A stretch of 30,222 bases of DNA from positions 1-30,222 of IMG/VR virus record IMGVR_UViG_3300046535_000186, one strand, 5' to 3'. Source of the DNA: a virus. Below are positions 25,437 through 28,341 of the stretch, one piece after another. The number at the start of each line of letters is the position of its first letter. Within the stretch, counting starts at the first letter, position 1. The notes beneath the pieces were generated by a model. The model saw nothing but the letters and a program-made list of their open reading frames with translations, ran no database searches and was not told the DNA's origin. Position numbers and translations under genes: made by a program.

Positions 25437-25605
25437 CGACGCGCGCGCGACGATCCCACCCTGAACGGCGCTCCGAGAACGGGCGCCGTTTTTTCATGGT
25501 GCGGCGCTCGAGCGGCCGGCGGTCTTTCCAGTCGTCGGCAGCAGAATCAACGACTTGCGCGCCCTGGTAAATCCTGAACCAGAGCGCTTCCCGAAAACTT
25601 CCCAT
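25399..25605 (-). CDS. Arg-rich 68-aa mini-protein with ERRSGWDRR motif
   Basis: The ORF starts where the upstream leftward gene stops (TGATG overlap at 25603-25607), which argues for translation. The first half (SFREALWFRIYQGAQVVDSA) is ordinary. The second half is strongly basic, KKRRPFSERRSGWDRRARV, with SERRSGWDRR at residues 44-53. The same ERRSGxDRR core recurs in the mini-gene at 26657-26800, encoded by different codons. The gene runs through the late terminator hairpin, and its end overlaps a possible ORF on the other strand. Function is unknown. A basic peptide could bind nucleic acid. Confidence 0.5.
   Translation of the reverse strand: MGSFREALWFRIYQGAQVVDSAADDWKDRRPLERRTMKKRRPFSERRSGWDRRARVATVSAFAAWPAW
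25464..25494 (+). terminator. Intrinsic terminator closing the late operon
   Basis: AACGGCGC (25464-25471) pairs perfectly with GCGCCGTT (25483-25490), followed by a run of six T (25489-25494). It lies at the end of the lysis cassette and just before convergent leftward genes. No T tract occurs on the leftward side, so it acts mainly on rightward transcription. Confidence 0.82.
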
Positions 25606-25919
25606 CACGGCGCCCGATACAGGCGATCCATCCGGCCCGCGATTTCCAGTTCTATCCGGCGCCGGTCGACTTCCACCTTGGCGGCAAGCGCCGACCGTTC
25701 CAGCCCGGGCGCATCGGTGGCCAGCACATGCAGCACCTGCAGCGTCGCGTGCCACTGGTGAATGGCGCCGGTCATCCAGTGTACGCAATCGCACATCAGC
25801 TGTCGGCGCTCGAGCGGCGTGACCTTCGCCGCTTCCAGCGTGTCGAACCGGGCGTCGACTGCTTCACGTAGGCGCGCAAGGGCGACGTCGTACACCTGGA
25901 CGAAGGGTAAGTGCTTCAT
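25605..25919 (-). CDS. Hypothetical phage protein
   Basis: This 104-aa protein is not recognised. It is predicted almost wholly helical (FVQVYDVALARLREAVDARF, TPLERRQLMCDCVHWMTGAI, then LAAKVEVDRRRIELEIAGRM). AGGAG lies about 10 bases before its ATG, so the start is secure. It ends with a TGATG overlap into the Arg-rich 68-aa ORF. Together with its neighbours it belongs to the leftward early cluster. No membrane or metal-binding pattern is evident. Confidence 0.7.
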   Translation of the reverse strand: MKHLPFVQVYDVALARLREAVDARFDTLEAAKVTPLERRQLMCDCVHWMTGAIHQWHATLQVLHVLATDAPGLERSALAAKVEVDRRRIELEIAGRMDRLYRAP

Positions 25920-25931
25920 GGTCGCGGGCTC

Positions 25932-26063
25932 CTATGGGTAGGGCAAGGCAGCGCGCAGGCGGTCGACCAGGTGGCTGATCAAGTCGGTGGCCGCTGCCGG
26001 GTCGATCGCGCCGTAGAGGGCGAGACCCAGCAGGGCAAGCAGGATAAGGTCGGTCAGGCGCAT
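25932..26063 (-). CDS. 43-aa single-pass membrane peptide (putative)
   Basis: The ORF encodes MRLTDLILLALLGLALYGAI followed by a short amphipathic helix (ATDLISHLVDRLRAALPYP). The hydrophobic stretch at about residues 5-20 is a likely membrane segment. It fills most of the gap between two leftward genes. Its ATG lies inside a perfect 10-bp inverted repeat (26060-26087), which could hide the start in mRNA. The ribosome-binding site is not obvious. Small membrane peptides are common in phage early-left regions. The function is unknown. Confidence 0.5.
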   Translation of the reverse strand: MRLTDLILLALLGLALYGAIDPAAATDLISHLVDRLRAALPYP

Positions 26064-26110: not shown

Positions 26111-26647
26111 TTATTCCAGAATCTGCCAGTCTTCGGCCAGCGCATCCGACTGCGACGGCGCCCAGCCCATCAGAATCGCGCCCTGTGCCGTCTTCAGGAT
26201 GAAATAGGGCAGGACCGTCGCCCCGCCGCCGTTCGCTTCCGCGTGCGCGCGGGCGTGCTCGTTCCAGAATTGCGACGCCGCCAGGTATTCGTTCCCCTTG
26301 CCCAGCGCGACCCACTGGCCGGCACCGTTCCAGCCGACGCGCGCCACCTTCGCGCCGCCCTTCATCGCTTCGACCGCCAGGCCGAAGTTCATGGCGTCGC
26401 ACGGCCGATAGGCCTTGTCGAACGCTTCCTTGGGCGTCCAGGTGACATAGCCTTCGTGGGTCGGCAGGTTCGGCTTGCCGCCGTCCAGGTATTCGACCAG
26501 GTAGCCGGGTTCCTCGGCCTGTTCATCAGCCGGCAGGGTCCAGCCGCGGAAAGCATTGTAGGCGCCGCGCGTCATCGGTTCGGCGCGGATTAACTTGGTA
26601 CCGATGAATCTGGCGACGGTCTGGGTCGGGATGGTGGTTGCTTGCAT
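26111..26647 (-). CDS. Tad2-like (DUF2829) domain protein, candidate anti-Thoeris factor
   Basis: This 178-aa protein has two parts. Residues about 11-80 (VARFIGTKLIRAEPMTRGAY, NAFRGWTLPADE, LVEYLDGGKPN, GYVTWTPKEAF) form a domain often found in phage early proteins. Residues about 86-178 match DUF2829, now called the Thoeris anti-defence 2 domain: MNFGLAVEAMKGGAKVARVG-WNG, LPYFILKTAQGAILMGWAPS, then QSDALAEDW. Tad2 proteins are known to sequester the cyclic ADP-ribose-type signal made by Thoeris ThsB, stopping NADase activation. An AAGGAAG site precedes the ATG. The gene lies in the leftward early cluster, where anti-defence genes often sit. Binding residues are not verified here. Confidence 0.8.
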   Translation of the reverse strand: MQATTIPTQTVARFIGTKLIRAEPMTRGAYNAFRGWTLPADEQAEEPGYLVEYLDGGKPNLPTHEGYVTWTPKEAFDKAYRPCDAMNFGLAVEAMKGGAKVARVGWNGAGQWVALGKGNEYLAASQFWNEHARAHAEANGGGATVLPYFILKTAQGAILMGWAPSQSDALAEDWQILE

Positions 26648-26656
26648 GGTCTTCCT

Positions 26657-26800
26657 TCAGGTGGTGCCCTTCGGATCGCGGGAGGGCGGCGCGTTTTTGT
26701 TGGTGCGGCGGTCACGTCCAGACCGCCGTTCCCGAAGCCATCGCCACTGGAAAAACCCGCGCCGATCCTGGCCGCGTGACTTCGGCTTCGGTTTCTGCAT
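26657..26800 (-). CDS. Arg-rich 47-aa mini-protein with ERRSGRDRR motif
   Basis: The ORF begins at ATG 26800-26798, overlapping the upstream stop as TAATG, and ends 9 bases before the Tad2-like start. The product is strongly basic (MQKPKPKSRGQDRRG, then RERRSGRDRR at residues 23-32). It shares ERRSGxDRR with the 68-aa ORF at 25399-25605, using different codons. Coupling to the previous gene and filling of an otherwise empty gap argue for a real gene. The function is unknown. RNA or DNA binding is plausible from the charge. Confidence 0.55.
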   Translation of the reverse strand: MQKPKPKSRGQDRRGFFQWRWLRERRSGRDRRTNKNAPPSRDPKGTT

Positions 26801-27012: not shown

Positions 27013-27140
27013 GGCGAGGTTCCCCGGCAGCGGCAGATGCCGCGTCCCTGGTTGCTGTTGCAGCTGCAGGACGGCGCGGCGCGCCAGAGTTCCAGCATCA
27101 GCCGAAACAGGAAAAACGGGTTCAGGTATGGGTGCATCAT
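27009..27140 (-). CDS. 43-aa coupled small ORF
   Basis: Its ATG at 27140 overlaps the stop of the 314-aa gene (ATGA). Its own stop overlaps the ATG of the 70-aa coiled-coil gene (ATGA). The sequence MMHPYLNPFFLFRLMLELWR has a hydrophobic-aromatic N-terminal helix, and the rest is Cys-rich (SCSCNSNQGRGICRCRG). The double coupling is good evidence that ribosomes pass through this ORF. I do not recognise a family. Confidence 0.5.
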   Translation of the reverse strand: MMHPYLNPFFLFRLMLELWRAAPSCSCNSNQGRGICRCRGTSP

Positions 27141-28081
27141 GCCGGGTCACCGTCTTTTTTCGGTACCGCATAGTCCTGATACAGCGCATCGCGCACCAGG
27201 CCCGGCGGGCTGAAGGCGACGATCTCGGCGGCGGCCCGGTTCTGGGCCTGCAGGTCGACGTGCTCCGTGCTGCCGTCACCGTGCACGCGGAACGCGCCGG
27301 TGCCGTGCACCACCGCGTCGGCGAAGGCCGCGTCGACGGCATCGGACGCCGCCGGCTGGCGCGCTTCCAGTTCCTGCCCCTGGTCGGCCAGTTCCTGCAG
27401 CCCTGCCTGCTTCGCTGCGCGGTCGATGCGTTCGATCTCGGCCAGAATCAGGGCGCCGGCCTTCACCAGTTCGCCGCGGCGGTCGCCTTCTTTCGGCACC
27501 TTCCAGTCAGCCGGCACAATGGCTTCGCCAAAGGTGTCGCCGTAGCCGGTCTCCGTCGCCGACCATTCCCGCGCAGCGGGCGGCATGGCGTAGAAAGCAG
27601 CGTAGGCTGCAATCTCGCCGCCCACGTGGTCATCGTCGTGTTCCGGCGCATAGCCTTCCTGTTCGACCTGGCGGCAACGCTCGGCGAGCACATCACGCGC
27701 GGCGTCGCTTGGCTGGGCCTTGTGCAGCGCTTCATACTTGGCATACAGGCGCGCCACATCGCGCAGCGGCACGGTGTCATAGTCCGGATGGATGCTGTCG
27801 CCTTCCTTCCAGTAGCCGAAGGATGCGGTGCCGATCGCCGCCATCTGCAGGCGGTACTGTTCAATGTCGTCCAGCTTTGCCGTGCCTTCCACATACACGT
27901 TCACGCGCTCATATTCGGCCGGCTGGCCGGGCCAGGTGGCGCCGTACTGGCCGACCACGCCCGCGTTCGGCCCGGTTAGCAGCAGGGTCCAGCGTTCACC
28001 CCAGCGCAGCGGCAGCTTCGGCTTCGGGAGGTTGTCATCTGCGCGGCGGTCGCGGCGCTCGTTCTGGTTTTCGGTATTCAC
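27137..28081 (-). CDS. Two-domain phage protein of unknown function
   Basis: This 314-aa protein starts at GTG 28081, which overlaps the upstream stop (GTGA) and has GGAG about 8 bases before it. The open frame extends to 28180 but inside the upstream gene. The N-terminus is NQNERRDRRADDN. Residues about 22-120 form one domain (PLRWGERWTLLLTGPNAGVV, then YERVNVYVEGTAKLDDIEQY). Residues about 127-225 form a second, recurrent phage domain (LAERCRQVEQEGYAPEHDDD, HVGGEIAAYAAFYA, then DRRGELVKAGALILAEIERI). The second has a conserved HDD and a D-RR-x-LVKA-x-ALI-x-AEI-x-R pattern. A MazG-like nucleotide pyrophosphatase fold is possible but unproven. The C-terminus (SDAVDAAFADAVVHGTGAFR) seems to be a separate small unit. 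Confidence 0.72.
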   Translation of the reverse strand: MNTENQNERRDRRADDNLPKPKLPLRWGERWTLLLTGPNAGVVGQYGATWPGQPAEYERVNVYVEGTAKLDDIEQYRLQMAAIGTASFGYWKEGDSIHPDYDTVPLRDVARLYAKYEALHKAQPSDAARDVLAERCRQVEQEGYAPEHDDDHVGGEIAAYAAFYAMPPAAREWSATETGYGDTFGEAIVPADWKVPKEGDRRGELVKAGALILAEIERIDRAAKQAGLQELADQGQELEARQPAASDAVDAAFADAVVHGTGAFRVHGDGSTEHVDLQAQNRAAAEIVAFSPPGLVRDALYQDYAVPKKDGDPA

Positions 28082-28341
28082 TTTGCGGTTCTCCGTTGTT
28101 TGAGGGCTGATTCGGCGGCATCCCATGCCAGCCGCACGCGCTCGTCCAGGGTAGTTATCGGCTTTTCGCCGCGGGTCCATCCTTGAGCGTCGATGCAGGC
28201 CGGCAGCGCCGCCAGGAAGGCGCGGTCCAGAAAGGCCTGGCGCTCGGCCTGCATTCGTTCTGCGAGGCGGTCGCGCTGCACGCGCTTCCGGCCAGCGGCA
28301 TAGCCGCGCGCATAGACCCGTTTTTCTTCTGTCGTCGCCAT
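28078..28341 (-). CDS. Small basic helical phage protein
   Basis: The 87-aa product begins MATTEEKRVYARGYAAGRKR, a pattern common in small phage early proteins (YARGYxAGR). It continues with a charged helix (LAERMQAERQAFLDRAFLAA) and the segment GWTRGEKPITTLDERVRLAW ending in AAESALKQRR. The ATG at 28341 has an AAGGGG site. The upstream extension to 28476 lies mostly inside the exonuclease gene and is a shadow. The stop overlaps the GTG start of the next gene. The function is unknown. Confidence 0.72.
   Translation of the reverse strand: MATTEEKRVYARGYAAGRKRVQRDRLAERMQAERQAFLDRAFLAALPACIDAQGWTRGEKPITTLDERVRLAWDAAESALKQRRTAK

Follow-up and report, generated by a model that had tools for sequence, protein, structure and literature searches.

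The window analyzed here is the whole of an IMG/VR virus record of 30,222 bases; among the annotated records closest to it are one for a P22-like coat protein from a spring metagenome and one for the portal of Rhodoferax phage P26218. On the minus strand, an intact open reading frame (ORF) running from 26647 to 26111 (26111..26647, -) encodes a protein of 178 residues, with an ATG start, a stop codon, and a Shine-Dalgarno-like GAAGGAAG (26651..26658, -) that can be read from the sequence a few bases upstream of the ATG. The protein has two parts: (i) an N-terminal module of residues 12-84 (26396..26614, -); and (ii) a C-terminal Tad2 domain of residues 85-178 (26114..26395, -). The gene lies outside the head operon, near the end of a leftward early block that contains a DnaQ-like exonuclease gene (Pfam) and is convergent with the lysis genes.

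The next gene upstream in the same direction is an ORF of 47 residues (26657..26800, -), which is 89% identical in the close relative L001. There, an extra ORF of 290 residues (L001:4080-4952) separates it from the fusion gene, and this position may be an insertion site for accessory genes. Downstream lie an ORF of 43 residues with a hydrophobic stretch (25932..26063, -) and one of 104 residues (25605..25919, -), which are 83 and 93% identical, respectively, in the related locus L004; no counterpart of the latter was found in loci L001-L003. The initial annotation had proposed that such tiny neighbors could be further anti-defense factors. Small ORFs of 47, 43, and 104 residues are indeed present and in part conserved in relatives. 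Searches of Pfam, PHROG, and the sponge HMMs, however, gave no match for any of them, and an anti-defense role of these genes is not supported. None of Acb4, the Acb2/Tad1 hairpin, PF21825, and RyR is present in the window; for the first three, this result comes from the sponge HMMs. Farther upstream, a protein of 347 residues (27137-28180, -) matches many uncharacterized PHROG families over residues ~159-258 (best E 3e-41); this C-terminal domain is widespread among phages and has no Pfam match.

Profile comparisons and structure predictions identify the C-terminal half as a Tad2 domain, as the initial annotation had claimed from the sequence, and its pocket motifs are conserved. Residues 86-177 match the entire Pfam profile PF11195 (Tad2-like; positions 1-73 of 73) with 78.3 bits (E 6.7e-22), the cut-off being 25 bits. 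All solved Tad2 proteins are matched by this half, both in single-sequence searches (E 7e-14 to 1e-8) and with a 65-sequence profile (E 2e-30 to 2e-22). The model of the full protein, predicted from 65 sequences, has a mean pLDDT of 90, and its Tad2 half has the predicted fold of solved Tad2 entries (Foldseek E 3e-7; VIA Z 11-13). Its best structural match is SptTad2 with cGG (VIA Z 13.1, rmsd 2.3 over 96 residues); HgmTad2/AcrIIA7 is also among the matches, and nucleotide-bound Tad2 complexes are among the close ones. PADLOC and NCBIfam gave no match for the protein.

The initial annotation had advised that the ligand-pocket residues be checked along with the profile and the Tad2 structures, and at the level of sequence the pocket motifs are present. 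For instance, the GWNGAG motif (residues 105-110; 26318..26335, -) falls in the loop b1-b2 of the pocket, and its residues G105, W106, N107, G108, and G110 are invariant or at least 90% conserved among 65 relatives. In addition, the W162-PS-D168-DW174 motif (26126..26164, -) covers the loop b4-a3 and helix a3 of the pocket, with W162, S165, D168, D173, and W174 conserved in at least 90% of the same relatives. GWNGAG and W162-PS-D168 correspond to the pocket-lining loops of Tad2 named in a review (PMC12043709), and a long insertion in the protein sits where that review places the cyclic-dinucleotide site of Tad2. Such an insertion is also found in SptTad2 and HgmTad2. The predicted fold and the GWNG and W-PS-D-DW motifs are common to the window protein and Tad2 (SPO1 Gp34.65, SptTad2, HgmTad2/AcrIIA7, and ModTad2). 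The solved Tad2 proteins, however, are single domains of ~88-104 residues, whereas the window protein adds an N-terminal module of 75 residues. Counter-defense is by far the best reading of the protein and is well supported for its C-terminal half: judged from these similarities, the protein very probably soaks up a small bacterial signaling molecule that triggers anti-phage defense.

The extra N-terminal domain proposed earlier is borne out as well. Its ~75 residues (12-84) form one conserved block in an alignment of 65 relatives, with a mean pairwise identity of 63% vs. 58% for the Tad2 core, and are predicted with high confidence to form a folded domain. The module has no Pfam model but is recognized by its own HMM (E 1.5e-41). 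What found no support is the idea of a fusion peculiar to this phage, as the two-domain layout is that of a large known family, PHROG 872. The phrog_872 profile (positions 9-172 of 172) matches residues 7-178 and thus spans both domains (E 1.8e-58), which places the window protein, by its sequence, in an existing and mostly unannotated family. Among 50,697 phage records there are 292 matches, and in 89 of these the match extends over 80% or more of the query. Gp49 of phage N4 has the same module-Tad2 layout, and PHROG 872 and N4 gp49 differ from the window protein in sequence only. In N4, gp49 is overlapped by an Acb4-family gene, gp48 (the gp48-gp49 pair being L354:1603-2456). The Pfam label "N4 Gp49" for PF13876 fits gp48 of the N4 record, and the name seems to be shifted by one gene. 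The fusion itself is therefore already widespread; what is unexpected is the use of the N-terminal module across families, together with a possible relation to the capsid decoration protein Dec.

The module of the window protein shares a superfamily with the modules found in fusions with Acb4, the Acb2/Tad1 hairpin, PF21825, and RyR. The least biased census of its partners comes from bacterial genomes searched with the module profile alone; a scan of bacterial genome contigs with the full protein found nothing, but the module profile did find matches, in 79 unique ORFs. In 76 of the 79, the partner is Tad2, Acb4, or the PF21825 hairpin: 48 carry Tad2, 18 the hairpin, and 8 a module-Acb4 arrangement, with one Acb4-module and one module-Acb4-Tad2 protein. 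Three have no assigned partner, and one of these ends at a contig end. When the ORFs of the loci are analyzed with Pfam, the two-part layouts are module-Tad2, module-PF21825 hairpin, Acb4-module, module-Acb4, Acb2/Tad1 hairpin-module, and module-RyR. Three-part layouts are Acb4-module-hairpin, module-Acb4-hairpin, module-Acb4-Tad2 (L248), and module-hairpin-Tad2 (L198, L214). Acb4 occurs before or after the module, and arrangements recur in both domain orders. In Stenotrophomonas phage Philippe (L016:507-1638), a stand-alone Tad2 gene lies two genes before an Acb4-module-PF21825 gene, beside the terminase.

Acb4 (PF13876), the Acb2/Tad1 hairpin (PF24729), RyR/RyDEP (PF02026), and crAss001_48 (PF21825) are separate Pfam families from Tad2, yet elsewhere they are found fused to or beside the same module. 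Acb4 is a family of sponges that bind 3'3'-cGAMP, and unexplained extensions in some of its members were remarked upon by the authors who described it (PMC11722364). The Acb2_Tad1_hairpin is fused to the module in L229 (E 3e-16). RyR is fused to it in gp10 of Pectobacterium phage phiA41 (E 3e-7) and in L446 (E 1e-10); according to a 2026 study, phage RyR domains defeat Thoeris by acting as cADPR glycosidases or sponges, and a Pectobacterium phage RyR homolog was tested in that work as an isolated RyR domain (PMC13232231). Except for PF21825, each partner family thus has members shown by experiment to sequester or degrade defense nucleotides. As a conserved domain in its own right, the N-terminal module is combined with several unrelated families, nearly all of which bind or degrade signals. 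In the literature searched, which is largely open-access, no description of the shared module was found, although it may have been mentioned elsewhere.

Stand-alone modules without a sponge also occur (phiEaP8, Possum, and Avpd1), as do modules with other C-terminal parts in Rhodoferax P26218_06 (L014:2879-3424) and Vibrio phage 1.184.A (L183:1477-1899); the module is therefore not confined to anti-defense proteins. The C-terminus of L345 was considered as a Tad1/Acb2 hairpin, but its E-value of 0.015 is below the Pfam cut-off and it was not counted. In Vibrio phage KF3, a protein annotated as MazG pyrophosphatase (L359:470-1654) starts with a Tad5 domain, a type I Thoeris inhibitor (Pfam E 4e-28); a module-like stretch behind that domain (BLAST E 0.6) was not used.

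Sponge genes are also enriched in the neighborhood of the module. A separate sponge-family gene, mostly Acb4, is present within 1.5 kb at 29 of 117 module loci vs. 1 of 80 control loci (Fisher p 1e-6), an effect size that is approximate because the control loci were chosen by one unrelated small phage family. Comparison of close relatives further indicates that the two halves have diverged unequally. In the pair L050 and L055, the module is 100% identical vs. 42% for the Tad2 half, and between the window and L004 the values are 92 and 51%. At the DNA level, the identity of the window to L004 is 0.80-0.95 in the module, 0.42-0.48 in a segment comprising residues ~109-169 (26141..26323, -), and ~0.9 after it. 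This segment contains the long insertion (lid); the difference does not extend beyond the stretch that separates the GWNG and W-PS-D pocket motifs, and identity is high to either side of it. Such a pattern is compatible with a recombinational exchange of the ligand-facing segment. The initial annotation had offered altered ligand choice as one meaning of the fusion; a swap between the pocket motifs, while the N-terminal module stays constant, would point to such a change.

The module is predicted as a small barrel with weak matches only to Tudor, chromo, CarD, and SH3-type domains, and at Z 3-5 these matches are too weak to name the fold. A protein family with an LPRYQCHK motif, on the other hand, serves as an intermediate that links the module to the OB-fold of Dec. 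The module aligns with the intermediate family with a probability of 98.3% (hhalign, E 1.5e-14), and the intermediate family with the Dec OB-fold with 91.5% (E 8.6e-7). Among 22,852 ORFs, Dec is the only match outside the module superfamily at E<0.01 (E 0.0012). The direct profile comparison of module and Dec is not significant, and only the transitive route gives the link. Proteins of the intermediate family are themselves fused to Tad2 (L442, L007) and RyR (L446, L447). In one of these (L007:4524-5492), an LPLYKCHK-type module is followed by a middle part of ~130 residues that has no assigned family and then by a Tad2 domain.

Dec, known from phages L and ST64T, binds the P22-type coat protein through its N-terminal OB-fold (PMC6449081), and it is this domain that appears to be a remote relative of the module. 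The Dec of ST64T is taken to be Orf-134 on the basis of its size (134 residues) and position; the record itself carries no Dec name. Where the window protein carries a sponge, Dec carries a trimeric spike, and the key capsid-binding residues of Dec are not conserved: K30 and Y49 are absent from the module, and their region is missing or replaced in the alignment. Two other relations were considered but found no support. The layout of module-hairpin proteins (four strands and two long helices) suggested that the module might be the N-terminal beta domain of Tad1, but the module-hairpin relatives have no sequence match to PDB Tad1 at E<10. Helical hairpins dominate the fold search of the module-hairpin model, and Tad1 is absent from its lists, an absence that is no exclusion. 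A relation to the phage KYRKKPVVI... family received an hhalign probability of 1%.

The preferred explanation, to which a probability of about 0.7 is given, is that the protein combines a nucleotide sponge of the Tad2 type with an interchangeable module for docking. Tad2 proteins are homotetramers that hold the ligand between protomers; they bind gcADPR, His-ADPR, or cyclic dinucleotides and inhibit Thoeris/CBASS. By analogy with the Tad2 family, the Tad2 half would assemble the protein and bind a nucleotide immune signal without degrading it, candidates being a cyclic ADP-ribose isomer, His-ADPR, and/or a cyclic dinucleotide. Upon binding of the signal, the defense effector would stay off. 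The module would not be a sponge but a docking or scaffold part, which could provide the same location, partner, or assembly to any signal-disabling domain. In this respect it seems to be a shared component of the phage counter-defense toolkit.

In a specific form of this explanation, the Dec-like module would dock the sponge on the coat protein or shield the coat from the Thoeris sensor. This proposal derives from the module's remote relation to Dec, through the capsid-binding domain of the latter; it is one possibility among others and a rather doubtful one. In S. aureus, ThsB1/B2 is activated by the major head protein (PMC11312562); since the OB-fold of Dec binds coat and the major head protein triggers one Thoeris system, docking on coat protein assemblies would place the sponge at the source of the signal. 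The ST64T Dec gene and the module-Tad2 genes of Kapi1 and Huey share the region after the lysis genes, and module-Tad2 genes are found inside the head gene clusters of phiAH14a and Skulduggery. In the window, by contrast, the gene is in an early block; moreover, the link to Dec is transitive, the site-1 residues of Dec cannot be aligned with the module, and small barrels such as this one have a wide range of binding partners.

The initial annotation had also suggested a bifunctional protein, in which the module would itself be a second nucleotide-binding domain and the whole a sponge for two signals. The module does contain highly conserved charged and aromatic residues (K18, R27, R34, W36, E42, E52, Y53, D55, N60, Y67, and W70), all of its well-characterized partners act on nucleotides, and the triple fusions show that phages stack specificities. 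An independent sponge would have no need of a partner, though, and the module is paired in all but three of the 79 ORFs; its predicted small barrel, with its weak Tudor, chromo, and SH3-type matches and its remote match to a protein-binding OB-fold, likewise makes this unlikely. It is less probable still that the Tad2 domain handles no defense nucleotide, being degenerate or repurposed, for example into a structural part or an anti-CRISPR like AcrIIA7. AcrIIA7/HgmTad2 does belong to the same family and is called a CRISPR inhibitor in the PDB, and some depositors label such genes anti-CRISPR, but the conserved pocket motifs and the nucleotide-bound complexes among the close structural matches speak against this. 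Phage genomes are mosaic, and the few modules that stand alone or with unrelated parts could suggest that a common phage domain merely happens to adjoin sponges. Such neutral mosaicism would be very improbable given so narrow a choice of partners, the recurrence of layouts in both domain orders, and the enrichment of separate sponge genes nearby.

In the broadest and much more speculative version of the docking explanation, a docking domain that is dedicated, mobile, and akin to a capsid-binding OB-fold might bring swappable signal-disabling domains (Tad2, Acb4, the Acb2/Tad1 hairpin, RyR, and, by prediction, the PF21825 hairpin) to one site at which Thoeris or CBASS signals are triggered, for instance the nascent coat, and PF21825 might be a further family of nucleotide sponges. 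Sponges have so far been described family by family, and a shared module that lacks a Pfam model may reveal further signal-disabling domains by association. The immediate prediction is that the uncharacterized PF21825 hairpin is such a domain; the C-termini of Rhodoferax P26218_06 and Vibrio 1.184.A are weaker candidates. The gp48-gp49 pair of N4 offers a ready laboratory model, and the module raises the question of whether sponges act from a specific location within the infected cell.
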